The notes under the pieces are model-generated. The model ran no database searches. It was not told where the DNA came from and saw nothing but the letters and a program-made list of their open reading frames with translations. Positions 1-21,179 of a DNA stretch of 33,151 nucleotides are shown here, piece by piece. Every line of letters starts with the position of its first letter. The first letter of the stretch is position 1. A program made the position numbers and the translations under genes. The stretch lies in contig JABHMO010000005.1 in assembly GCA_018693855.1 (NCBI GenBank), positions 1-33,151 on the forward strand, given 5' to 3'. Origin of the DNA: Candidatus Falkowiibacteriota bacterium (GTDB lineage: Bacteria > Patescibacteriota > Patescibacteriia > UBA11705 > JABHMO01).

Positions 1-54
1 ATCTTCATCATCGACCGATTCAAGAGATTGTTCCATTGTTGATTCGTTTTGCAT
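1..54 (-). CDS. N-terminal fragment (off left edge) of a further member of the tandem coiled-coil/LRR-like paralog family
   Basis: Reverse complement of 54..1 reads MQNESTMEQSLESVDDED, matching the MEQSLEA/SLES N-termini of the other paralogs; it begins 1 nt after the stop of the upstream paralog (56-58). Confidence 0.6.
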   Translation of the reverse strand, partial: MQNESTMEQSLESVDDED

Positions 55-55
55 A

Positions 56-691
56 TTATTTCCAAATTATTTCACCTATTTTCCCTGCTTCTTCTAATTT
101 TATTAATTTACTAATGATTACTTCACTTAAATGTTCTTTGCTAATAGATAGATTTCCTATTTCAATATCATCTGCAACATTAAGTAATTTACATCCATAC
201 ATTGACAGAAAATCACATTTAAATCGCTCAGGAATATCTTTTACTTGTGTATTATCCAACACTAATTTATGACACTCAAATCCGATCGAAATCTCTTCTG
301 TTTGCGTATTTCTCAAAAACACCTCCCTGCAGATCAATCCAGGTGGAATTCGTTTAAATTCTTTATTATCAAATGCAATTAAAATCCCGCTTTTCACTGT
401 TGGACGCTCCAAATCATTTAAATCAATCGCCGTTTTCAACCATTTTTCAGGTTCATCCACAATTATCTCATCCCTTGCCCAATCCACAAACATCTCATAC
501 GTCCAAACTTTTTCTTTTTCTTGATTTTCAACTTTTTCTTTTTCCTGCAATTCTAAAATTTTCGTCAAAAGGCTATGTTTCTTTTTCACATCATCACCAA
601 CTTCTTCCAGTTGCTGCTGCAATATATTTAATTATTGCTCGCAATCAGATCCTGGATTTTGGTTTTCTAATTGTGAAATATTTTCTGTCAT
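56..691 (-). pseudogene. Paralog of the coiled-coil/W-motif/LRR-like family, interrupted by an in-frame TAA (632-634) after 19 codons; the distal ORF (56-622) is otherwise intact
   Basis: ATG at 689-691 gives MTENISQLENQNPGSDCEQ*LNILQQQLEEVGDD... in one frame with the 188-aa ORF; contains VWTYEMFVDWARDE and the C-terminal LSISKEHLSEVIISKLIKLEEAGKIGEI. Confidence 0.65.
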
Positions 692-698
692 AATTACA

Positions 699-3107
699 TT
701 ATTGCTGTTTTTCAATTTTTAATTTAATTTTTTTAATTTCCTCCCGAAATAAAGCTAATACCGTTTCGCCTAGTTCGGCTACGCTAAATATCTGACGGCC
801 ATCTTCACCCCAAAGTCTTTGAAATTTCTCACTGTCCTCCACTGGATCAAATGGACGATCTTTTGGTTTGTCATCCTTTATTCTGGGACCTGATTCTTCT
901 TCGTCAGGTTCATTGGACGCCTGCTTTTGCTCTTCGATTGTGACGATTTGAAGGGCTTTCATAATCATGTTCATTGATTTAAGCTTTTCTAAATAGTTTC
1001 GACTTTGCTGAAGAGTTTGAGTACCACCATCAGTTAATTCAAACCCAACATCAATCAATTCTCCCTTTTCAACTCTTTCAGAGTCCTTCTGTTCGTCAAA
1101 ACTATCCATAACTAACTGCAAAGCAGGGGCATCTTCTGTACCTCCAGAATCAGCGTTAACATAAGAGAATGCGGCAACTGTATCTAGGAAATCACGCTGA
1201 GGATCAACACCACTCTCAGGAGATTTAAATGGTTTAACTATCTTAGCGTCTTTAGCGTCTCCCCATACAATAACTTGAGTATTAATTCTAATTGGCGGTT
1301 TTTTGCATTTAAAGGATTTGAATAATTTATCAATTCCTCTTTCAAATTCAGCCAAGCTTTCCATAAAAGCAACGTAAAGAGCTTTAACTGCTTCAATGTT
1401 ATCACCAATCATTGAACCCGAAATATCAATTAAAAATCTAAACCGAATCTCATCAGGTTTAAATTTAATTTTTTCTATAAAACCTTTTTTTGCATAAGAT
1501 ATCACTTCATCAGGCAACTCATGAATTGCGCCATCTTGAAGTAAATGTCCATATTTTTTAACAAAATGACCAATATCAAGTTTTCCTTTACTATAATACC
1601 TATGCCACTCTGTTTCCAGCTCTTGTTTCAAATTAACTAAAATTTCTTCCCAGATTTTCGCAATATCTTTTTTGTAGCCTTCTACCTGACGTTGAATGTA
1701 GCGATAGTCTGCCATCACTAAATCAGCAAAAGCTGGGTCTTTAAATTTCCCTCCATATTCACTAGCGAACATTTCATCTTTTTTCCTTTGCAAATACTTT
1801 GCTTTTTCTTCTGGATTCATTCTTTTTAATCGTTCCGCATCGTAGGCTTCTTTTCGTTTCTTTTTTTCAGCATCCTTTTTGGCTCTAATAAAATCCTTCA
1901 CAGCCTCTCTGTCAATTGGACTTGGTTCATTTATATCTTTCCATGGATCATCATTTTCATTTTTAGGTTCACTGTCAGACTCTGTTTTTTTATCATCATC
2001 GCTTTTACTTTTCTCGTCAGAATCACTCGGCAAAGAGTCAGAACCTTCACCATCCCCCTCCTCGCCAGAATCCTGACCTTTTTTTGGTTTATTGGGGAAA
2101 GGTAGCTTTTCTAAATCATCAAAAAGAAACCTCCAAAATTCCGGTTCAACAATCTTTTCAATAATTGCATGTCTAAAAGAAGCGATGTGTTGCCTTTTTT
2201 CCTGAGGTAGTGTTGGTCGAGTAATTTCATCAACTAATTCAAACATTGACTTATTACCAACCTTAGAATCAACAAAAACCTTGACTCCAGGGTCAACCAG
2301 AACATCCTGATTAGGCACCATTCTTTTTCTAAGAAAATAGTATGCTAATTGAGCATGTTTACCATGGGAAAGTGCTGAGAATGGTTTTGAGTCATCAGTT
2401 TTTTCTCCCCTTTCTCCAGCTGGAAATAGATAATCTCGATAAATTTCATTAGCAACCGGACTGTGCTTACCTTGATCAATTTGAAATCTAGGGATAACAC
2501 GACCTTGTCTTTTATTAACATTAATATCATCTAAGCAGTTATAAAGCATGTGTACTTTTTTATACAGAAACAAAGCTAAACCTTTAATTTTTTCGCCATT
2601 AGGTTTATCGTCCAAGGGATTATCTTCTGTCAACCATTTAGGTAAAGGCTTGCCTTCAGATGCCGCTCTTTTTTGAAGAATATCAAGTGCTCTAGGATAG
2701 TTGTCTTTTGACACTCGTATCATGCGATCAAAGTTTCTCAATAATCCCTCAGGATCATCCATTAAATCACGGAGATGACCTATTTCATGACCAGATCCAA
2801 AGAGAAAACTCTCAGTGCTTGGCAAAGCACCAGCTTCATTGTCAAGCCAGTCTCGATAACCAAGACTTATTTCACCTTTCTCATAATCAATTTGAAAACC
2901 ATTACCAACCTTAAAACTCATGGTGTTATCTCCAGCAAGAGTAGTGAAAAGATTTCGATTATGATCAATATATTCCTGTGCTTGACGCTTAGCTCGTTCT
3001 ATCTGCTTCTTTTTCTCCAGTTTCTTTTCTTCTTCTGGTGTTAATGGCGTTGGCTCTTTTACTGGTTCGCCAGCTGGCTCTTTTTGATTGAATTGTTCTG
3101 CCTTCAT
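699..3107 (-). CDS. Metallopeptidase-like (HEIGH) plus von Willebrand factor A domain protein, 802 aa, with an acidic low-complexity linker
   Basis: N-terminal FGSGHEIGHLRDL (HExxH) followed by NCLDDINVNKR; C-terminal FLIDISGSM (DxSxS MIDAS), GGTEDAP and ELTDGG; layout resembles DUF2201-type putative metallopeptidase plus VWA proteins. Confidence 0.85.
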   Translation of the reverse strand: MKAEQFNQKEPAGEPVKEPTPLTPEEEKKLEKKKQIERAKRQAQEYIDHNRNLFTTLAGDNTMSFKVGNGFQIDYEKGEISLGYRDWLDNEAGALPSTESFLFGSGHEIGHLRDLMDDPEGLLRNFDRMIRVSKDNYPRALDILQKRAASEGKPLPKWLTEDNPLDDKPNGEKIKGLALFLYKKVHMLYNCLDDINVNKRQGRVIPRFQIDQGKHSPVANEIYRDYLFPAGERGEKTDDSKPFSALSHGKHAQLAYYFLRKRMVPNQDVLVDPGVKVFVDSKVGNKSMFELVDEITRPTLPQEKRQHIASFRHAIIEKIVEPEFWRFLFDDLEKLPFPNKPKKGQDSGEEGDGEGSDSLPSDSDEKSKSDDDKKTESDSEPKNENDDPWKDINEPSPIDREAVKDFIRAKKDAEKKKRKEAYDAERLKRMNPEEKAKYLQRKKDEMFASEYGGKFKDPAFADLVMADYRYIQRQVEGYKKDIAKIWEEILVNLKQELETEWHRYYSKGKLDIGHFVKKYGHLLQDGAIHELPDEVISYAKKGFIEKIKFKPDEIRFRFLIDISGSMIGDNIEAVKALYVAFMESLAEFERGIDKLFKSFKCKKPPIRINTQVIVWGDAKDAKIVKPFKSPESGVDPQRDFLDTVAAFSYVNADSGGTEDAPALQLVMDSFDEQKDSERVEKGELIDVGFELTDGGTQTLQQSRNYLEKLKSMNMIMKALQIVTIEEQKQASNEPDEEESGPRIKDDKPKDRPFDPVEDSEKFQRLWGEDGRQIFSVAELGETVLALFREEIKKIKLKIEKQQ

Positions 3108-3134
3108 ATATTAAGCTAGTTTACATTTTTTAAT

Positions 3135-5810
3135 TTAGTACTGTGCGCCTATTGTTTTTATCTTGTGATCTTTTACAAACTTTATAATTTCATCCGTTTT
3201 AGCAGCTAGCTCTGCCTCTTTGTCATCTCTCTGCGCAGGTTCGAGATCGTTCTTTTCTATTTCTTTTTCTAGTTCTCTACAATCGTAAGCGATCCTATGT
3301 AAAGCAGTTAAATCTTCTTCGCTCTCCCCAGGACTACCCTTTGCAATAAAAGCCGTCAGCCCCCCCTCAAATGTCAATCTTGAATCAATTAAAGAGATTA
3401 CATGGTTATAAACAATCTTTATTTGCAATTCTGCAATCTGTCGTAATTGATTTTCTTTTTCAGCATCACCCATAATATCATCTAATTCATCATTCTCTTC
3501 GATTGATTCTTCTTCTGTCTTATCAAATCCTTTGTTTAATGAATCCATAAATTCCTTAGATATTTTTTGTCTTCCAGGTATTGGACCATACATTGCTTCT
3601 ATAAAATCTAGTGTACTAAGTTGTTCTATTGTTACCTTTTCACCAAGGTTTACGCTTCTTTCTGTTAATGAGTCAATTGATTTTGATCGATCAAAACCGT
3701 GCATTAGCTTGTCATAATCCTTTGGATTATTTGAATCAGGCCAATCTCCATCTGAGCCCTTCGGAAAGAAGTCTCCAACTGTTTGTAAAATTTGATAAAT
3801 ATATTTCAATTCATCAGGTCTAGATTTTGATCTCATCACATACTTTTTCAATAGATAATAATCCAAAGGTTTTTTGAATTTTTCATTTTTCCACTTCTCA
3901 ACAATCGGAATCAAATGCCGCAAGGACAGTACATTTTCATGCAAAAAATCTGAAGGTTTTCTATCTGATCCAAAAACAGCATCACTCGGATCATATAGTT
4001 TAGATCCATCACCGTATAAACTTGAAAGATTGTGGCCTGAGAAAACATCCTGCAACACTCTAGCACAACGAGTAAGATTATAAATTTGTTCTACTGCTCC
4101 TTGTGGCAAATTCGTTCCATGCAGATCATCAATCATTCGAGTCATCACCATGTGAAAAAGTTCGTTGCCTTCACGTCTTTCACGAAGCTCGGCTTTTTCC
4201 TGTTCTGTTCGATTAATAGTTGCCTCCTCTTTTGAACTGAAGTCATCAACATCAATTTCATTTCGTAGATAGTCGTATGCAACCAATCCCCATCTGGAAA
4301 GAAAAGCAGAGTCTAATTTTTGTCTTCCTACATACTGTTCATTATCATCAGGTTTCCAGTTACCTGTGCCAATCACAGCAAATCCTTCTGGGACCTGAAA
4401 TTCGGGTAAATCATCAACCATTGGTTTAACATAATCACCTGCCTGTTTCGTTAAAAGATCATTCAACATTATCAAAATATGATGAGGAATGGCATTCATC
4501 TCATCAATAATAATTGGACGACCATCCTTCATCGCTTTATAAAACATTCCGAGATACGCTTTCGTTTCAACTGGCTGTTTAAATGATTCTACGTAGGCAT
4601 CCGTTAGATCCTTAATCATCTCCGAAGAAGATTCTGGATTTGCTTTTTTATAAGCATTCACTTTTTCATTGATAAATTCAACCTGTTCTTCCGGGTTCAT
4701 CTGAACCATCTTTTCAATCTTGATACCTCCAATGAAAATATCAGCGTCTATTTCTTTATTACCAGAGATCACAAGTGGTTCACTCGCAGCCTCTCGTTCT
4801 CTTTTCCAGGACGCAAATAGTTTTACGTATTGCGCCAATGCATCTTTATACTCAGCTTTATTATTAAAATCTGACTGCACAGGCTCTTCTGGACGGTGAT
4901 GAGCTTTCATGTTATTTTCACCATTTTCCCAGCGTTCCAAGTATTTCTCAGACAAAACTGTTCTAACTAGATGTTTTCCTAATTCAGTTTTACCACTACC
5001 CAACTCTCCAGTAATAAATACGGGTTGCCCAATCGCTATGTCTTCTATAACATCTTGCATAACTTCTTTTACATATGGAGTTTCCACAATTCTTCCGTTA
5101 GCATCAAAACTCTCTTTCATGTTTTTAATTTTATCAAAAACAATATAAATAAAAGCCTCAGGATTCTCCTTTAAATAAAGTTTATATTCCTCCAATTTTT
5201 CTTTGTATGCCTGATTTGCTTCATGAATGGTCTCATAATCGTCATCATCGGAAGCCAAATCCTTAGCCATAACAAGAACATCAAGTTCATCACTATATTT
5301 AGCTATTTCTTTTTTTGCTTTAAGATATTCTTTGTGTCGATAATTTGTAAATTCAATCATCTCTTTCCCAAACTCACTTTCCGTCGTCTCTGTCTCGTCT
5401 TCACCTGTAAGTTTTTTTCTAAGTTCCACCAATTCCAAAGTTTTTCTGATTTTTGATTTAATTCTCCCTTCAACTAAAGCATCGAGTTTTGCATTACTCA
5501 ATCCCTTTTTCTTCTTAGCAATTTCGTCTCGAATAGCTTTTTCGTCAATAAATTCTCTTATCTCCTCGGGAGCAAGATCTTCATTCATAACTTTACGTGG
5601 AGTTAGATGAAGTTTTACCTCTCTTTCCTCTCCATCAATTTCTCGTTTCGCAATCACAGGTTTAGTCACTTTACATAATTCTTTCCATTCTTTAGCAAAT
5701 TTCATACGTAGTCCCTGAAATCTATCAAACTTTTTTTCGATTGTTTCAAGTTGAGATTGATCTTCACCTGGTAGATCTACGATGTCAATGTAGCTTGGTT
5801 GTTCTTTCAT
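3135..5810 (-). CDS. MoxR/dynein-like AAA+ ATPase, 891 aa, with about 240 aa of helical N-terminal extension
   Basis: Walker A GELGSGKTE, Walker B RPIIIDEMNAIP, sensor-1-like GFAVIGTGN, arginine-finger-like LDSAFLSRWG; adjacent to the VWA gene. Confidence 0.88.
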   Translation of the reverse strand: MKEQPSYIDIVDLPGEDQSQLETIEKKFDRFQGLRMKFAKEWKELCKVTKPVIAKREIDGEEREVKLHLTPRKVMNEDLAPEEIREFIDEKAIRDEIAKKKKGLSNAKLDALVEGRIKSKIRKTLELVELRKKLTGEDETETTESEFGKEMIEFTNYRHKEYLKAKKEIAKYSDELDVLVMAKDLASDDDDYETIHEANQAYKEKLEEYKLYLKENPEAFIYIVFDKIKNMKESFDANGRIVETPYVKEVMQDVIEDIAIGQPVFITGELGSGKTELGKHLVRTVLSEKYLERWENGENNMKAHHRPEEPVQSDFNNKAEYKDALAQYVKLFASWKREREAASEPLVISGNKEIDADIFIGGIKIEKMVQMNPEEQVEFINEKVNAYKKANPESSSEMIKDLTDAYVESFKQPVETKAYLGMFYKAMKDGRPIIIDEMNAIPHHILIMLNDLLTKQAGDYVKPMVDDLPEFQVPEGFAVIGTGNWKPDDNEQYVGRQKLDSAFLSRWGLVAYDYLRNEIDVDDFSSKEEATINRTEQEKAELRERREGNELFHMVMTRMIDDLHGTNLPQGAVEQIYNLTRCARVLQDVFSGHNLSSLYGDGSKLYDPSDAVFGSDRKPSDFLHENVLSLRHLIPIVEKWKNEKFKKPLDYYLLKKYVMRSKSRPDELKYIYQILQTVGDFFPKGSDGDWPDSNNPKDYDKLMHGFDRSKSIDSLTERSVNLGEKVTIEQLSTLDFIEAMYGPIPGRQKISKEFMDSLNKGFDKTEEESIEENDELDDIMGDAEKENQLRQIAELQIKIVYNHVISLIDSRLTFEGGLTAFIAKGSPGESEEDLTALHRIAYDCRELEKEIEKNDLEPAQRDDKEAELAAKTDEIIKFVKDHKIKTIGAQY

Positions 5811-5819
5811 ATGAGTAAT

Positions 5820-5862
5820 AAGAGGGCTAAAGATGGCTAGAGATGGCTAGAGGGGGCCTACA
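5820..5862. repeat. Short tandem repeat (GGCTAGAGAT-like) upstream of the AAA+ gene
   Basis: agagggctaaagatggctagagatggctagagggggcctac. Confidence 0.7.
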
Positions 5863-5913
5863 AAGAGGTTAGAAAAACTTAGCCGATTTAGCTCCTGTTA
5901 TGTTTTAGATTGA

Positions 5914-6693
5914 TTATAATTCGAAAACGTTAACATCGTTTTCTTCGTCCACAATGTATATATGGTTAATTTTACCTTCTTCTTTTAATCGAATCAGCTG
6001 TTCTCTAATTTCATCCGAAAAAAATCCTTTACTAATACTTAAACGATCAATTTCTATATCTTCACCAATATAATCTATTTGATTATTCCGCATAACCAAA
6101 TCCTTACAGACAAGACCATTCTCAATAGCATGAACCTCTGTACCTGAAATATTAATTCTCTTACTCATCATCTTAATACCAGGTAAGCTTTTTATATTTG
6201 TTTTAGCCAAATTCAAAAAATCACATTGAACATTTTTAGAGATTTTCCTTACTTTTGTGTAACCAAAATCAATATATTCACCCTTTATATATGGTGGAAT
6301 TCTCTTTATTCCATCAAGACCAAAAAGACGCATTTCTCTTAATTTAAACCTAGGTTGCGTCATATCGCTTAGATCAAGATTTTCTTCAACCCATTCATCT
6401 GGATCATTCGACCCGACCTCATCCCTCGCCCAATCCACAAACATCTCTCGCGTCCAATACTGTTCCTTTTCTTTTTGCTCGAGTAGCATTCTTCGCTGCA
6501 ACTCTTCTACTTGTCTCATTAGTTCTAAAACTTCTGCGCGTCCGTCAACCTCTAAGTCCTCTATTTTTCTATCATTTAACAACTGTTTTAGTTTTTCTTC
6601 TAGTTTATCAATTTCAAACTGAGCATCCCCTTTTTCAGAAGACTCAAGATTAGTTTGTTGATCAATGCGTTGTTCAAATGATTGATTAGTCAT
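5914..6693 (-). CDS. Coiled-coil/W-motif/LRR-like tandem paralog, 259 aa
   Basis: TNLESSEKGD..., YWTREMFVDWARDEVGSNDPDEW, IP-type repeats, C-terminal LSISKGFFSDEIREQLIRLKEEGKINHI. Confidence 0.8.
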   Translation of the reverse strand: MTNQSFEQRIDQQTNLESSEKGDAQFEIDKLEEKLKQLLNDRKIEDLEVDGRAEVLELMRQVEELQRRMLLEQKEKEQYWTREMFVDWARDEVGSNDPDEWVEENLDLSDMTQPRFKLREMRLFGLDGIKRIPPYIKGEYIDFGYTKVRKISKNVQCDFLNLAKTNIKSLPGIKMMSKRINISGTEVHAIENGLVCKDLVMRNNQIDYIGEDIEIDRLSISKGFFSDEIREQLIRLKEEGKINHIYIVDEENDVNVFEL

Positions 6694-6702
6694 AATTAAT
6701 TC

Positions 6703-7500
6703 TTACTCTATTTTATCCGCATGTTGAGGATACATTTTTTTTAATTTTTCCTTTCTTTTCTCAGACAAACAATCAAAAATTATGGTTCCCCCAACATAAT
6801 CAGGTAGAACTAACCCTTTAATAGTTTTCAAATCATTAAAAATCAGATGATTACCAATGTAATTTGGTAGCTTAAGTCCTCGAGGGTTAGTTAAATTAGG
6901 AAAAATCAAAGTTTTACCTATATAATCTGGAAAATTCACCCCCTCTGCCAAAGTTAATGATTGCAACACTAAGTTTATTTCAATTCTGTTAGGAAAATTG
7001 AATCCATCAGCATCAGTTAAATCGATTGTTTCGATACTACCATGAAAATTTTCAGGAAATTCTAAATCTTGCGAAAATTTTTGTCCGTTCAACCTTAAAT
7101 ATAGAATTCTTAGATTAGGTGGAAAACGTTTCAATTTAGATAGATCTAATGTTAATGACTCAGATTTTAGTCGTGGATGAGAGCAATCACTTAGATCAAG
7201 TGTTGCATCTAACCACTCCTCAGCATTCTCTACTCCCACTTCATCCCTCGCCCACTCAATAAATTGTTCCTTATCCCAATATTTCTCTTTTTCTTGCTTT
7301 ACAACCTTCATCTTTTCCTGTAACGACTCAATCTGCTTCAGTAAATCCAAAATCCGTGCACGATCTTTGTTATTTAGTTCATTAACATCTCCAACTTGAA
7401 TCGCCTCAAGCTGAGCTTGAAGATTTATAAGTTCTTTTTCGTGATCAGGTTCCGAGGGAGCTGATTCAAGTGATTGAATTGTAGGTGGTTCTTCTTGCAT
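6703..7500 (-). CDS. Coiled-coil/W-motif paralog with a 21-aa 'G-x-x-[FL]-P-x-x-[IV]-G' solenoid, 265 aa
   Basis: YWDKEQFIEWARDEVG; repeats GVNFPDYIGKTLIFPNLTNPR / GLKLPNYIGNHLIFNDLKTIK / GLVLPDYVGGTIIFDCLSEKR. Confidence 0.8.
   Translation of the reverse strand: MQEEPPTIQSLESAPSEPDHEKELINLQAQLEAIQVGDVNELNNKDRARILDLLKQIESLQEKMKVVKQEKEKYWDKEQFIEWARDEVGVENAEEWLDATLDLSDCSHPRLKSESLTLDLSKLKRFPPNLRILYLRLNGQKFSQDLEFPENFHGSIETIDLTDADGFNFPNRIEINLVLQSLTLAEGVNFPDYIGKTLIFPNLTNPRGLKLPNYIGNHLIFNDLKTIKGLVLPDYVGGTIIFDCLSEKRKEKLKKMYPQHADKIE
6754..7068 (-). repeat. Protein-level tandem repeat of 21 aa, five units
   Basis: DLEFPENFHGSIETIDLTDAD / GFNFPNRIEINLVLQSLTLAE / GVNFPDYIGKTLIFPNLTNPR / GLKLPNYIGNHLIFNDLKTIK / GLVLPDYVGGTIIFDCLSEKR. 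Confidence 0.75.
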
Positions 7501-7501
7501 A

Positions 7502-8185
7502 TTAATCTTCAGTGTCCATGTATTCTATCTCTCCTATTTTTCCTTGCTTTTGTAGATTCTCTAATTGATTTTTTATGTCTTGACTTACTTTTGATAAAGA
7601 AACCTTTAATTTTCCTATTTGTATATTATTAGAAACTTTTTTAATTGTACAATATCTCATCGACAATTCTGCAAAATGACATTCGTCTGGAATTTCTGTA
7701 ATAGGAGTTCTACCAACGTCTAATTTTGCTATGTGATGTTTTACAGGAATTTCACGTAAATCAGTATTATAGGCATACACCCAATTAGCAATCAATCCAG
7801 GAGGAAGTCTTTCAAGCTCTACGAGCAAAATCACCGTTAAATCCCCACCTATCACCGCCGGAGCAGCCAAATCATGTAAGTCGAATGTTTCATCTACCCA
7901 CGCTTCAGGATCTTCTCTCTTTACTTCCTTTTTCGCCCAATCAACAAACATCTCTCGCGTCCAACACTGTTCTTTTTCTTCTTTCTCAATTAACTGTTTC
8001 TGTTGTAATTGTTCTATCTGTTTCATCAATTCCAAAACCTCTGCACGTTCATTGTCGCTCAATGCTTCTACCTCGCGCCCTGCCTTAATATTCTCAATCT
8101 TGGCCTGCAAACTTGCAATTGTTTTTTCATTATCAGATTCTGGTTGTACTGCTTCGAGTGATTGTTCCATGTTGGATTGATTCAT
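7502..8185 (-). CDS. Coiled-coil/W-motif/LRR-like tandem paralog (start reassigned to MNQSNMEQS)
   Basis: CWTREMFVDWAKKEV, LPPGLI repeats, C-terminal LKVSLSKVSQDIKNQLENLQKQGKIGEI; ORF track start at 8218 overlaps the upstream gene, ATG at 8183-8185 fits family N-termini. Confidence 0.78.
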   Translation of the reverse strand: MNQSNMEQSLEAVQPESDNEKTIASLQAKIENIKAGREVEALSDNERAEVLELMKQIEQLQQKQLIEKEEKEQCWTREMFVDWAKKEVKREDPEAWVDETFDLHDLAAPAVIGGDLTVILLVELERLPPGLIANWVYAYNTDLREIPVKHHIAKLDVGRTPITEIPDECHFAELSMRYCTIKKVSNNIQIGKLKVSLSKVSQDIKNQLENLQKQGKIGEIEYMDTED

Positions 8186-8201
8186 AATACTTAATTCATT
8201 A

Positions 8202-8930
8202 TTAAATAGAATGCACAACAGTCATAGTACCTCGATAATAAACGTCTATGCTTTTTATATTTCCCTGTTTTCTTAATTTCTTTAACTTCTGCGCAATTGC
8301 GTCAGAAAAGTTACCCTTAGTTAAAACTAATTTGTCGATATTTAAATTCGAACCTACACTTTCTAAATTACATCCTTCCATGGAAAGAGTCTTACAGTTG
8401 AATCCTGATGGAATTTCTTTAATTGGCGTATTGTTAATCTCAACATACTTAAATCTTAAGTTGGCCGGGAGTTCCCTAGCATTTGTTCCATTTAAATTTA
8501 TTCGTTCACCTATTAACCCCGGAGGGATAGTTTTTGTATTTTTTTCATTTTCTCTTTGCATTAACGTCATTAGCAATTTGGGCGACGTAATATCATCTAA
8601 ATCAAAGTTAGCATCAACATACTGCTCTGCCCAATCTCTACCCCATTCAGGTTGAACCTCAGTCATTGCCCAATCAATAAACATCTCTCGAGTCCAATAC
8701 TGTTCTCTTTCTTTTTTCTCAATTAATTGTTTTTGCTGTAATAATTCCATCCGCTTCATCAATTTCAAGGCTTGCGATCTCTCCTTGACGTTCAATTCAT
8801 CAAAATTACGCTCAAAAAGCAACTCGGCTAACTCAACTTGGTATTTATCAATTTCAAGTCGCAAATCGCCTTCATCGACCGATTCAAGATTGCTTTGTGT
8901 TATTTTTTCTTCAAAAGGTAATTTATTCAT
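8202..8930 (-). CDS. Coiled-coil/W-motif/LRR-like tandem paralog, 242 aa
   Basis: SNLESVDEGD..., YWTREMFIDWAMTEV, IPPGLIG repeats, C-terminal LVLTKGNFSDAIAQKLKKLRKQGNIKSI. Confidence 0.8.
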   Translation of the reverse strand: MNKLPFEEKITQSNLESVDEGDLRLEIDKYQVELAELLFERNFDELNVKERSQALKLMKRMELLQQKQLIEKKEREQYWTREMFIDWAMTEVQPEWGRDWAEQYVDANFDLDDITSPKLLMTLMQRENEKNTKTIPPGLIGERINLNGTNARELPANLRFKYVEINNTPIKEIPSGFNCKTLSMEGCNLESVGSNLNIDKLVLTKGNFSDAIAQKLKKLRKQGNIKSIDVYYRGTMTVVHSI

Positions 8931-8935
8931 ATTTA

Positions 8936-9676
8936 TTAAAGAAAATATCTTTTTACATTTGGGTATTCACCTGAATAAACTGCGATACTTTTTATTTGCC
9001 CCTGTTCTTTTAGTTCAATCAATTGTTTTTCTATTTCTGGTGAAAAAGCCCCCTTTGATAGCATTAATCTATAGATTTGAAGGCCTGTTCCGACTTTCTC
9101 TAAAGAACATCCATCCATTGATAAAATAGAACAACTAAAACCAGAACAAATCTCCGTTATATCAGTTTTACCGACATAGACAGCCTTAACTTTCAAATTA
9201 GCAGGTAGTTCTTGAACTTTTGTTCCTCTAAAATTAATATCATCACCAATCAAACCAGGTGGAATACGCCTTATTCCATCCGTACGATGCATTGACAATG
9301 GCATTTTTAATCTAGGAGCTGATATATCAGTCAAGTCAAAACGTTTATCGATAAAATCAGTTGCCTGTTTTTGATTCCAACTAGTATCAACTTCTGTTAA
9401 TACCCAATCGATAAACATTTCACGTGTCCAATACTGTTCTTTTTCTTGTTTTTCAATTAGTTGTTTTTGTTGCAATGCTTCTATCTGCTTCATCAATTTC
9501 AGAGCTTGCGATCTCTCCTTCACGTTCAATTCATCAAAATTACGCTCAGAAAGCAACTCAGTTAACTCAACTTGGTATTTATCAATTCCAAGCTGAACAT
9601 CACCTTTTTCAGTTGATTCAAGAGAGCTCCGTGGATTTGGTTGTTGTTCAAGCATTGGTTCTTTCATATGTATCAT
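8936..9676 (-). CDS. Coiled-coil/W-motif/LRR-like tandem paralog, 246 aa (true start may be 9667 or 9655)
   Basis: SSLESTEKGD..., YWTREMFIDWVLTEV, IPPGLIG repeats, C-terminal LMLSKGAFSPEIEKQLIELKEQGQIKSI. Confidence 0.8.
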   Translation of the reverse strand: MIHMKEPMLEQQPNPRSSLESTEKGDVQLGIDKYQVELTELLSERNFDELNVKERSQALKLMKQIEALQQKQLIEKQEKEQYWTREMFIDWVLTEVDTSWNQKQATDFIDKRFDLTDISAPRLKMPLSMHRTDGIRRIPPGLIGDDINFRGTKVQELPANLKVKAVYVGKTDITEICSGFSCSILSMDGCSLEKVGTGLQIYRLMLSKGAFSPEIEKQLIELKEQGQIKSIAVYSGEYPNVKRYFL

Positions 9677-10931
9677 GGTCCAAAATTATTTCACCTATTT
9701 TCCCTGCTTTTTGAAGTCTTAATATTTTCCCATATATTTCATCACTGATTATTTTTTCATTAATCCAAAGCTCTCCTATCTTTACATCCTCAGAAAATTC
9801 TTCAATTTCACAACCACCAATTCTTAAGGCATCCAATCTTACACCGGCTGGGACTTTTTTGACTTGACTACCTGACAAAAAAAGATCTTTGATAAATGTA
9901 TTTCCAACTGGAATTGTATCAACTGGCGTCATATCCAATGATAGACTAGTGCATTTCAGCCCATCTGGAATTTTTCGAACATCAGTTTCGTCAAGATCCA
10001 AAAAATTTATTTCAATGTCTGGAGTGATAACCTTAACTTTCGAATCGCTAAGAGTTAATTCATCACATTCAAATCCGTGTGGAATAACTTCAACATCAGT
10101 ACCGCTCAGATGCAATTCTTCACAGTTTAAATCTGGCGGGATAACTTTGACCTTGCTTTTTGACAAATTTAACACTTTAATTGAAAAATTATCAGGAATT
10201 ATTTCAACATCAGTAAAGGTCAGGCTTAGCCCCTCGTAATCAGCATCTTGAGGAATGTCTGTAACCGACGTCTTATTCAAATTCAATCGTTTTACTCTAA
10301 ATGTTGACTTATCAGTTGGAATATAATCAACAGTACTTCCATTCATCAATAACTCATTACATGTTATTGACTGTGGATAACTATTTACTCCTGTATCAGA
10401 AACATCAATTCTTTTCTTTTTAAGATCATTTGGTATTTCAGTAATTCGCCCGTTACCAACAACGAGAATTGATTCAAATTCACAATCAACAGGAAAAGTG
10501 TCCAAATCACAATTGATTGCAGCAAGGATTTTCCCACGCAATCCCATAGGAACTCGTTTAACTGATTTTGATCCAGGAATTCTAAAATAGTCATCTTTAG
10601 CCTTCGGTTCAAAAGGATCAGAAAAATCTATTTTTTTATCAATCCAAGTTTCTGGGTCTTTCTTTCCAACTTCATCTCTCGCCCAATCAATAAACATCTC
10701 CCTTATCCAACGCTGTTCACGATCTTTCTTTTCCATCAGCTGTTTCTGCTGGAGGGTTTCAATCTGATTCATCAATTCCAAAATCCCTGCTCGCTCTTTC
10801 GCATTCAGTTCTTCAAATTCTCGTTCACCTCGAATATTATCAATGCGAGTCTGTGAATTTGCGATCTCTTCCTGATAGTTTAATCCCGACTGCTCTGACT
10901 CAAGAGATTGTTCAAAACGTTGCATCGTCAT
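9648..10931 (-). CDS. Long coiled-coil/W-motif paralog with an expanded ~19-aa LRR-like solenoid (start reassigned to ATG at 10929-10931)
   Basis: RWIREMFIDWARDEVGKKDPETW; repeats LNLSKSKVKVIPPDLNCEE / LHLSGTDVEVIPHGFECDE / LTLSDSKVKVITPDIEINF / LDLDETDVRKIPDGLKCTS; track start at 10946 is a TTG overlapping the previous stop. Confidence 0.8.
   Translation of the reverse strand: MTMQRFEQSLESEQSGLNYQEEIANSQTRIDNIRGEREFEELNAKERAGILELMNQIETLQQKQLMEKKDREQRWIREMFIDWARDEVGKKDPETWIDKKIDFSDPFEPKAKDDYFRIPGSKSVKRVPMGLRGKILAAINCDLDTFPVDCEFESILVVGNGRITEIPNDLKKKRIDVSDTGVNSYPQSITCNELLMNGSTVDYIPTDKSTFRVKRLNLNKTSVTDIPQDADYEGLSLTFTDVEIIPDNFSIKVLNLSKSKVKVIPPDLNCEELHLSGTDVEVIPHGFECDELTLSDSKVKVITPDIEINFLDLDETDVRKIPDGLKCTSLSLDMTPVDTIPVGNTFIKDLFLSGSQVKKVPAGVRLDALRIGGCEIEEFSEDVKIGELWINEKIISDEIYGKILRLQKAGKIGEIILDHDTYERTNA
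9771..10529 (-). repeat. Protein-level tandem repeat of about 19 aa (57 nt), about 13 degenerate units, LxLSxTxVxxIPxxxxCxx
   Basis: Counted directly from the translated ORF; several consecutive units are exactly 19 residues. Confidence 0.75.
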
Positions 10932-10932
10932 A

Positions 10933-11592
10933 TTATCTAATGTCAATTAATCGTCCTATTTTCCCTTCTTTCTCAAGCTGCTTCATTTTTTCATGAGCAC
11001 TTTTTGTGATACTTTTTCTAGAAACTGATAATTTATCAATTTTCACATCATCACCAACTTTATCGATTTTGCATGAGAATAAATACAGTTCGCCACATCG
11101 AAAACCACTAGGAATTTCAGTTATTTGAGTATGATCAGCATGAAATTCATCCCAAACATTATTAGCCGGTATCGCCTCTAATTTGGAATACGAAGCATAC
11201 AGTTCTGATCCTTTTATATTTGGAGGTAATCGATTCAATGTTTTAAGTTCATTTAGAACGAGGATTACGCCTTTCAACCTTGGATTTGCAATGTCATTAA
11301 GGTCAAAATGATTTTCCAACCATGCTTCAGGATCATCTGCACCGACTTCATCCCTTGCCCAATCAACAAACTGTTTCGTTGTCCAATATTTTTCTTTTTC
11401 TCTTTTTTCTTTCTTGATCATCCCCTGCAACCGAACAATTTCATCCATAATTTTAATTCGTTCTTGCAGCTTATTATCTCCATCACCAAGTTCTTCTAAT
11501 TTTCGCGACATCACCTCCAATTGCGAAACATAAACAGAATCATCAGAGCCTGATTCTAAATTGCTGATTGGTTGTAGTGGTTGTTCGGTCAT
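10933..11592 (-). CDS. Coiled-coil/W-motif/LRR-like tandem paralog; first gene of the array (start reassigned to MTEQPLQ)
   Basis: SNLESGSDD..., YWTTKQFVDWARDEVGADDPEAW, C-terminal LSVSRKSITKSAHEKMKQLEKEGKIGRL. Confidence 0.8.
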   Translation of the reverse strand: MTEQPLQPISNLESGSDDSVYVSQLEVMSRKLEELGDGDNKLQERIKIMDEIVRLQGMIKKEKREKEKYWTTKQFVDWARDEVGADDPEAWLENHFDLNDIANPRLKGVILVLNELKTLNRLPPNIKGSELYASYSKLEAIPANNVWDEFHADHTQITEIPSGFRCGELYLFSCKIDKVGDDVKIDKLSVSRKSITKSAHEKMKQLEKEGKIGRLIDIR

Positions 11593-11618: not shown

Positions 11619-11915
11619 CTAACACCAACCGCTTGCTAAATCATCCCAATCAGGATTGTCTCTTTCGACTAATTTAATTTTCTTTTCCCTTCGCCATTTT
11701 TTCATTTGCTTTTCCATGTTTATTGCGTCGTTTATATATTGATAGTTTTCGTAAAACACTAACTTAAAACATCTATACTGTTTAGTAAATCCTTCGTGAT
11801 CCATTGATTTGTGTTGAAAGACTCTGTTTTGCAAATTGCTTGTGACTCCGAGATATAAAACAGTATTCTTAGCGTTAGTCATAATATATACAGAATTGCA
11901 GTACTCTTTTAACAT
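11619..11915 (-). CDS. Single-domain GIY-YIG endonuclease-like protein (likely start MLKEYCNSVYIM; track ORF extends to 12020)
   Basis: VYIMTNAKNTVLYLGVTSNLQNRVFQHK...INMEKQMKKWRREKKIKLVERDNPDWDDL, typical of short GIY-YIG proteins; the longer N-terminus is translated from the adjacent palindromic repeat. Confidence 0.85.
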   Translation of the reverse strand: MLKEYCNSVYIMTNAKNTVLYLGVTSNLQNRVFQHKSMDHEGFTKQYRCFKLVFYENYQYINDAINMEKQMKKWRREKKIKLVERDNPDWDDLASGWC

Positions 11916-11928
11916 ACACTTGGAATGG

Positions 11929-12104
11929 GAACAGATTTCTCCCGTCCGCCTCTCGATTCGCTTTATTATATAATCTCTCTCGAGGCTCCAGTCGAAATGA
12001 CAGGAGGATGAGATTTTCAAGCCCTCCCTGTCATTTCGACTGGAGCGCTATTTAAAACGGCATTGTACTTTTGATAGAAAAAAGCGGACGGGAGAAATCT
12101 GTTC
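11929..12104. repeat. Nested inverted-repeat element: perfect 21-bp outer arms (11929-11949/12084-12104) and perfect 20-bp inner arms (11985-12004/12027-12046)
   Basis: gaacagatttctcccgtccgc / gcggacgggagaaatctgttc and gctccagtcgaaatgacagg / cctgtcatttcgactggagc. Confidence 0.9.
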
Positions 12105-20117: not shown

Positions 20118-20588
20118 TTAATTCTTCGCGAGTTGTTTTAATTTGAGACAATCATGTAAAAGATAAAGAACATTGCAGATAGCCAAAAGGATTTCTGACC
20201 TTGTCTTATCATTATCAACCCAACTTTTGATCAATGACTTTATTCTAATTGCCTCAGGCTTTATCGAGGCTCTAATTTCCTCAAAGATGCTATCAGCTGG
20301 ATTCATTTTTGTGCGATCGAAGATCCTCGCATAACGAACCAATCCATCACTAACCTCTGCCCCTGTTGGCAGTTTTATCATGTAGAGAATTGGTACGAAA
20401 ACGAGACGAATGATTACATCTTTATCAATCCCTTCTATACCGTCCAGTTGACGACCAATCACGTGCATTAATTGAATATGAAAATGATCCAACTCAAACT
20501 TAAACGCTTCCATTACTACTTGGTCTTCAGTTAAGTGCGCATCTTCTATCGCGTCAGGCTTGAATACTTCCCAAATTGTCAACTGCAT
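20118..20588 (-). CDS. Hypothetical protein (start reassigned to MQLTIWEVF), distant paralog of the next gene
   Basis: SD GGGG upstream of ATG 20588; VFVPILYMIKLPTGAEVSDGLVRYAR matches the neighbour's core. Confidence 0.72.
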   Translation of the reverse strand: MQLTIWEVFKPDAIEDAHLTEDQVVMEAFKFELDHFHIQLMHVIGRQLDGIEGIDKDVIIRLVFVPILYMIKLPTGAEVSDGLVRYARIFDRTKMNPADSIFEEIRASIKPEAIRIKSLIKSWVDNDKTRSEILLAICNVLYLLHDCLKLKQLAKN

Positions 20589-20626
20589 GATTTTCCCCTT
20601 TCCTAATTGCAATTACACAATAACTA

Positions 20627-20696: not shown

Positions 20697-21131
20697 CTAT
20701 CTCTTCTTTTTCTTGCATCGATAGATTGTGTACAAGATGTAAAATAGTGATCTAAGGAAATCGCATAGGACATCATCTTTTAGGTACGCACTAGCGTGTT
20801 TTATCAAAAAGTTGATATTTGGATGTCCACCCATTTGATAATCAGAATACGCAACTGCCATCTCGTTACTGTCACGAGCAGAACGTTCAATCTCCGCAAT
20901 CAGCTCTCTGTCAGACGGCAAATCAACAAGATACAGTACAGGAAAGATCACTTGATTTTTCACAGAATCAGCACTTTCCCTATCAAGTTTCACGAGTATG
21001 GCATCAATTCCATCCACGAGAGTCGGATGTTTTTCTTGCAAATCACGTCGATATTCGTCCATCAGCTCTTTATCATTTAGACGTTCTCTACAGTTGTTTG
21101 CAATTCTATCAAATATTTCCAAAAATCGCAT
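20697..21131 (-). CDS. Hypothetical protein (start reassigned to MRFLEIF), distant paralog of the preceding gene
   Basis: SD GGAGG upstream of ATG 21131; NQVIFPVLYLVDLPSDRELIAEIERSAR. Confidence 0.72.
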   Translation of the reverse strand: MRFLEIFDRIANNCRERLNDKELMDEYRRDLQEKHPTLVDGIDAILVKLDRESADSVKNQVIFPVLYLVDLPSDRELIAEIERSARDSNEMAVAYSDYQMGGHPNINFLIKHASAYLKDDVLCDFLRSLFYILYTIYRCKKKKR

Positions 21132-21179
21132 CTTTCTCTTCCTCCGAGATGAGATGAACAACTAGATTCACAACAACTC

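Follow-up and report, generated by a model that had tools for sequence, protein, structure and literature searches.

What is an AAA+ ATPase, together with a partner protein bearing a von Willebrand factor A (VWA) domain, doing in the middle of an array of leucine-rich repeat (LRR) genes? The question is raised by a stretch of 33,151 nt from Candidatus Falkowiibacteriota bacterium (the window), which makes up the entire contig C19 of a metagenome-assembled genome (MAG) of 0.995 Mb in 48 contigs. This MAG, the window's own genome, is designated G000; other G-numbers denote the genomes compared and L-numbers the loci read. The partner joins a metallopeptidase-like HExxH domain to the VWA domain, and such pairs recur in other Patescibacteria beside sets of proteins with a shared N-terminal and a variable C-terminal part. 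On balance, we lean towards a cytosolic machine composed of a MIDAS-type VWA, an AAA+ motor and a putative zinc protease, and served by interchangeable, diversifying sensor or adaptor proteins.

The pair and its array of leucine-rich repeat paralogs

All genes of the array lie on the minus strand, in the order p1 to p7, AAA+ gene, HExxH-VWA gene, p8 and the start of p9. The window holds eight LRR paralogs flanking the pair and 54 nt of a ninth. The gaps between coding regions measure 1-27 nt, with one overlap of 20 nt and a single exception, 103 nt upstream of the AAA+ gene; a scan for promoters and terminators returned fewer sites than in shuffled sequences.

The AAA+ gene (3135..5810) encodes a protein of 891 aa, of which roughly the first 230 residues form a long helical extension. 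The Walker A motif GELGSGKT (residues 268-275, 4986..5009) and the Walker B motif IIIDE (residues 433-437, 4500..4514) are conserved in the alignment of AAA+ relatives, as is the arginine finger. From these motifs and an AAA_5 match (PF07728, 25.6 bits against a cut-off of 22), the protein can be assigned to the MoxR/dynein-related AAA_5 family. Its partner (699..3107) has 802 aa. The HEIGH zinc-protease motif (residues 107-111, 2775..2789) is invariant in the alignment, and YNCLDDINVN (residues 189-198, 2514..2543), in which N, DD and VN are invariant, is a candidate third zinc ligand; the form YNCLDDxxVN is kept in most HExxH-VWA relatives. The MIDAS motif DISGS follows at residues 561-565 (1413..1427). 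Among relatives, HExxH is retained in 34/36, the MIDAS pattern DxSGS in 30/36 and Walker A in 28/29.

The VWA domain is seen only weakly by Pfam (E 0.004). The AlphaFold2 model of the partner protein (mean pLDDT 76) has as its best Foldseek match the MIDAS domain of human MDN1 and fungal Rea1, and other matches of the VWA domain at E<1e-3 are integrin I domains and NorD. The model thus points to a MIDAS-type VWA. The HExxH domain is a candidate zinc metallopeptidase by its motifs. DUF2201_N (PF13203), a known metallopeptidase-VWA domain, had no match in G000, the control being matched in Thermotoga maritima. We nevertheless take the HExxH and N..D..N pattern to be similar to that of DUF2201, the partner of TM0930-type MoxR proteins, and remote homology is possible.

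The paralogs have a common build, with an N-terminal helical hairpin, a W-block (pattern YWTxExFVDWARDEV..DPExW), an LRR solenoid of variable length and a C-terminal cap (pattern L..L...GKI..I). The first, p1 (10933..11592, 219 aa), was delimited from its open reading frame, a handle alignment and the shared blocks. It is followed by p2 (9648..10931, 427 aa), with the longest solenoid of the window, and, each recognised from its open reading frame and shared blocks, by p3 (8936..9667), p4 (8202..8930), p5 (7502..8185), p6 (6703..7500), in which solenoid and cap are most divergent, and p7 (5914..6693). Beyond the pair, p8 (56..691) carries an in-frame TAA at codon 20 (632-634), evident from the translation and from a profile match containing one TAA; past this codon the frame is open and every family block is kept. 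It may be a recent pseudogene, may restart at a downstream TTG or may reflect an assembly error.

No Pfam family scores above its cut-off in the paralogs (LRR only below it), and the Pfam, NCBIfam and PADLOC libraries offer no annotation for them. The AlphaFold2 model of p2 (mean pLDDT 82) opens with a helical hairpin and the helix pair of the W-block, continues as an LRR solenoid and closes with a helical cap; helices span residues 19-34, 44-72, 77-88 and 93-100 and are followed by strands approximately every 19 residues and a last helix. Foldseek matches it to LRR proteins such as LRRK2, SDS22, SlrP and YopM with modest scores (best E 9e-4), and on this model the paralogs are placed among the leucine-rich repeat proteins.

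The array extends beyond the window. When the genome was searched with one paralog, copies turned up on C19 and at the beginning of contig C6, and nowhere else. In reverse complement, C19 shares exactly 54 nt with the start of C6, an overlap of the kind left by a k-mer assembler at a repeat. These nucleotides are the first 18 codons of p9 (1..54); the rest of this gene lies on C6 (L021:1-675), followed by p10-p13, so that C6 adds five further paralogs (L021:1-3985) before an ftsQ-like gene. The same 54 nt also match a second place, C6:677, where p9 already precedes the copy. As an upstream neighbour is already in place there, the join of C19 to C6:1 is preferred on grounds of parsimony and is not proven. 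With this join, the five paralogs on C6 bring the array to 13.

Amino-acid identity among the 13 paralogs is highest in the W-block (0.49), followed by the hairpin (0.39), the cap (0.34) and the solenoid (0.31). Moreover, all nine exact DNA matches of at least 24 nt between paralogs fall in the hairpin, W-block or cap, the longest being 119 nt (p9 versus p10). Constant ends with exact DNA matches around divergent middles fit duplication together with exchange or constraint of the ends. No signal peptide or obvious membrane segment was found in any array or pair product; hydropathy was raised at one place only (1.89, in p5), apparently inside the solenoid. An earlier note on this DNA had described the pair within a co-directional, tightly spaced array of at least nine paralogs with shared ends and differing solenoids, and had considered the products probably cytosolic. 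This description stands throughout, except that the number of paralogs was understated.

The upstream side of the array is occupied by serS, alr and a small GIY-YIG nuclease gene (11619-12020), on the same strand and 26 nt upstream of p1. Elsewhere in the window, two adjacent short genes (20118-20612 and 20697-21161) have similar N-termini.

Exchanged and hypermutated partners in related genomes

Profile searches detected the HExxH-VWA protein in 21 of the 381 class genomes, and in 14 out of 380 taken from across the phylum; among relatives, the pair is rare and patchy. Named relatives include Candidatus Falkowbacteria (among them G009, a MAG of the window's order), Uhrbacteria, Magasanikbacteria and one Saccharibacteria MAG. 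A viral origin was rejected, no relative having been found in IMG/VR (scanned with one short pattern) or in phage records.

Reading of 38 pair loci, with neighbours counted within 6 kb of the pair, showed that recognition-type genes adjoin it in most: LRR genes, WD40 or other propellers, helical repeats and variable proteins of diversity-generating retroelements (DGRs). Paralogs sharing an N-terminus were found at 13/38 loci, a DGR-type reverse transcriptase (RT) at 9/38, and one or the other at 19/38. Most of the remaining loci have a single neighbour of the same recognition sort, or end at a contig edge. The single neighbours are LRR genes in G319, G188 and G466, propeller-like in G506 and CLec-like in G376 and G364. 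At the G506 locus (L183:11078-13624), two propeller-like genes adjoin a long version of the pair.

In independent lineages, arrays that look unrelated to one another stand beside the pair: in G009 (LRR and propeller-like), G001 (WD40, CLec-like and others), G203, G350, G573, G475, the Saccharibacteria MAG and G420. The Saccharibacteria locus (L090, JAUNQQ010000035.1) is compact, with the AAA+ gene, a sensor-like gene, the HExxH-VWA gene and a second sensor-like gene, the sensor N-terminus being shared. In G420, which belongs to another class, genes with the N-terminus 'EELSTLKESLRQALDEGDIQRAG' flank the pair on either side, ten in all plus a truncated one. Among their C-termini, two are propeller-like (one of them WD40 over the cut-off) and the rest resemble variable CLec domains. 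A layout with the pair inside an N-constant, C-variable array has thus arisen at least twice, with N-terminal parts that are not detectably homologous between G420 and the window. Mapped on the VWA tree (a quick tree with some long branches), the 25 labelled loci show at least ten changes of partner type, and LRR partners occupy four separate places: the window with G009, G319, G188 and G466.

In sister lineages, the variability takes the form of DGRs. RVT_1 and bAvd score over their cut-offs at these loci, and mismatches between template and variable repeats near the pair fall at template adenines in 13/14 and 14/15 cases at L071, 7/7 at L075, 10/12 at L076 and 6/6 at L182. RT, bAvd and adenine-directed repeats together identify DGRs in these lineages. 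At L071 (G343), the variable repeat ends two separate proteins and also the pair's own AAA+ (L071:4098-6689), so that the motor itself is a hypermutation target there. A profile of the variable domains from DGR loci matches an array member of G001 (E 3e-27). A general link between DGRs and the pair was rejected: DGR-type RTs occur in 166/381 genomes of the class and only a small group adjoins the pair, so most DGRs there are unconnected with it. The five best-scoring RTs are exactly those of the five pair-adjacent loci, which also built the RT profile. A DGR at the window locus was likewise rejected. The profile search found no DGR-type RT in G000, G001, G002 or G009, and the sole RVT_1 gene of G000 (L092:2049-3281, contig C21) is a stand-alone RT gene with an FADN motif, no variable protein near it and no likeness to a DGR.

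The constant N-terminal hairpin and W-block, here called the handle, allow the exchange to be followed within the order. In G002, the first 80 residues are common to LRR and CLec-like members (hhalign 100%, E 1e-47). The G001 array, in which the C-termini are WD40-like, CLec-like and others, has the same handle (97.6%, E 4e-12). LRR and propeller-like members of G009 also have an N-terminus in common (99%, E 3e-19); the handle of the G009 LRR members corresponds to the window's own (91%, E 1e-6). The window's W-block is found in the LRR members of G002 as well (E 5e-12). These alignments indicate that the recognition domain is exchangeable behind one handle, LRR alternating with a DGR-target-like (CLec-like) domain in one case and with a propeller-like domain in the other.

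The limits of this homology are clear. With hairpins alone, hhalign does not support homology between G001/G002 and G000/G009, a control coiled coil (SerRS) scoring similarly; this control also scores as high as some other handle cross-pairs. A single handle for the whole phylum was rejected at the sequence level, since the order's handles find no hhalign support when compared with the DGR proteins or with handles from G420, G203 and Saccharibacteria. In one branch, LRR, CLec-like and AAA+ proteins alike carry a short NPF motif in their N-terminal part (L079, L080, L182 and the G354 loci; the AAA+ of L071 and L077). This possible docking motif often accompanies the W-block LRR genes of G354 (L097, L107, L112, L116, L120 and L191-L193).

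The earlier note had named a paralog family occurring mostly without the pair in other genomes as evidence against its reading. This is not what was found: 30 of the 31 matches of the handle profile in the 381 class genomes (E<1e-5) lie in three pair-carrying genomes (G000, G002 and G009), G008 alone giving a strong match besides, and the strong matches all come from one order. Judged from these profiles, the tie between handle and pair is strong but not absolute.

A proposed mechanism and its alternatives

Rsa4 and Ytm1, the ligand proteins of the ribosome-assembly AAA+ Rea1, are themselves propeller proteins. The MIDAS domain of Rea1 binds their ubiquitin-like domains, letting the motor pull (PMC6624252, PMC8837202). 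In the reading we favour, the machine would serve cytosolic surveillance: the AAA+ protein of the window would be a ring motor of the MoxR type, working with an HExxH-VWA protein that combines a ligand-binding MIDAS-type VWA with a zinc-protease-like domain. The constant handle would dock on this machine, gripped by the VWA or by the AAA+ as the midasin precedent suggests. The variable domain, an LRR in the window and an LRR, propeller, CLec-like or helical-repeat domain in relatives, would bind different ligands, the solenoids thereby choosing the targets. Upon ligand binding, the motor would pull the handle or the bound target and deliver it to the HExxH domain of the partner protein for proteolysis; remodelling is an alternative output. 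The repertoire would be widened by gene duplication with shared constant ends in the window, and by DGR hypermutation in sister lineages. The earlier proposal of one AAA+/VWA machine with many adaptors is in this respect supported by comparison beyond a single genome, but it had missed the exchangeable, DGR-diversified recognition domain.

That the recognition part is diversified points to targets that change, mobile elements for instance, and a defence role against these is likely but unproven. It is tempting to go further and to propose, more tentatively, a lineage-specific, immune-like surveillance in Patescibacteria, in which one AAA+/zinc-protease/MIDAS engine serves a cytosolic receptor repertoire, germline arrays and DGRs alternating between lineages. 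The germline arrays of LRR or propeller genes would then be likened to NLR or VLR repertoires.

Several observations weigh against the machine with interchangeable sensors or against its role in defence. PADLOC returned nothing convincing, and no known defence gene stands beside the array. No Pfam peptidase family matched the HExxH domain, VWA being the sole family consistently seen in the protein. The handles of G420, G203 and Saccharibacteria are not detectably homologous to those of the window's order, so that the notion of one docking domain holds only within this order. Several array members of G002 and G009 lie on contigs other than that of the pair. Two nearly complete genomes have handles and no detected pair: G008 with one handle-bearing gene, and G354 with at least five scattered W-block LRR genes (weaker matches), in which neither VWA nor AAA+ was found. 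Finally, paralogous neighbours are found at 13/38 pair loci against 10/65 control anchors; these anchors come from just two gene pairs, and this weak control with genes far from the pair, small and non-independent, gives no probability.

A different explanation is a housekeeping machine for remodelling or quality control, akin to midasin, RavA-ViaA, NorQ-NorD or CbbQ-CbbO, with LRR and propeller proteins as multiple adaptors for endogenous client complexes instead of sensors for invaders. In its favour, known MoxR-VWA pairs of defined role have endogenous complexes as their targets (PMC9976466, PMC10585395), the VWA domain finds its nearest structural counterpart in a MIDAS domain from ribosome assembly, and housekeeping genes (alr, serS and the ftsQ-like gene) surround the array. 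However, rarity and patchiness at the level of 21/381 and 14/380 genomes are not expected of such a machine, the partner domains have been replaced repeatedly, and DGR hypermutation of a partner is ill-suited to fixed clients. We therefore regard a housekeeping function as rather unlikely.

Patescibacteria often live on other cells, and the variable proteins might act on host cells, either as adhesins or as effectors that are exported or injected, with the pair as an export or folding accessory. This would agree with the frequent discussion of DGR targets in the candidate phyla radiation (CPR) as mediators of cell-cell interactions (PMC8144416, PMC10907252) and with the bacterial effector LRRs among the matches of the LRR model. 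Such a role is hard to reconcile with products lacking signal peptides and membrane segments, with an array devoid of secretion genes, with the cytosolic appearance of the AAA+ and HExxH-VWA proteins and with the variable domain carried by the L071 AAA+ itself, and we consider it improbable. A coincidental neighbourhood, in which an LRR family expanded beside an unrelated AAA+/VWA operon, could account for the handle genes without a pair in G354 and G008 but is already disfavoured and very improbable, given that the VWA tree has at least four separate places at which LRR genes flank the pair, and that other recognition families take their place elsewhere.

If the machine with interchangeable sensors exists as proposed, it would constitute a receptor-repertoire system in bacteria with approximately 1 Mb of DNA, for which 13 receptor genes and an engine are a notable investment. 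In a large DGR survey, Patescibacteria targets were typically without recognisable domains, and their nature 'remains to be established' (PMC8144416). A subset of these targets is now tied to a defined machine, a MoxR AAA+ with an HExxH-MIDAS protein, which elsewhere uses constant-handle arrays of LRR, propeller or helical-repeat proteins. This offers a concrete hypothesis for the role of some hypermutated proteins in uncultured bacteria with minimal genomes.

Comparison with known systems

The simplest counterparts of the window pair are RavA-ViaA, NorQ-NorD and CbbQ-CbbO, in which a MoxR AAA+ also works with a VWA partner. In contrast to the window pair, they have a fixed client, no HExxH and no adaptor array. 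Midasin (MDN1/Rea1) resembles the pair in tying a dynein-related AAA+ to a MIDAS VWA, by which a domain of its ligand proteins is gripped (PMC6624252), but it is a single giant eukaryotic protein devoted to ribosome assembly, with fixed ligands and no protease domain.

Closer in spirit are the putative antigen sensors diversified by DGRs (PMC10907252), which likewise combine MoxR, vWA and a diversified recognition domain; the pairs of sister lineages resemble them further in having adenine-directed template and variable repeats alongside. The differences lie in the link to an HExxH-VWA protein in Patescibacteria and, in the window, in the use of a gene array with no DGR at the locus. The AAA+ of G343 (L071) is a fusion of exactly the kind that PMC10907252 cites from Paul et al. 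2017, and it belongs to the AAA+ family of the pair. In the open-licence literature, we found no description of the coupling of this fusion to an HExxH-VWA partner and to LRR or propeller arrays, nor of the HExxH-VWA architecture with multi-gene handle arrays.

The nearest known kind is that of the MoxR-vWA ternary conflict systems, which include VMAP, iSTAND, FtsH and beta-propeller subsystems (Kaur et al. 2020, PMC7159879); CPR genomes were excluded from the multicellularity statistics of that study. VMAP-C (PF20028) was not found in G000, G001, G009 or G420, where control genomes were equally silent, and it had no Pfam match in the array proteins. Pfam scans of the array products revealed no iSTAND or FtsH component. 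The window protein does not conform to the beta-propeller type, just about 80 residues following its VWA domain, and the bpMoxR model matches one relative, below the cut-off. The window system is set apart as a variant of the ternary kind because these defining third components were not found. Like the ternary systems (PMC7159879), it combines a MoxR AAA+, a VWA protein and a variable further component in a patchy distribution. Unlike them, its VWA protein carries an HExxH domain at the N-terminus and lacks an effector or propeller at the C-terminus, and its variable component is multiplied up to 13-fold behind a constant handle. That it deserves a class of its own is a real possibility.

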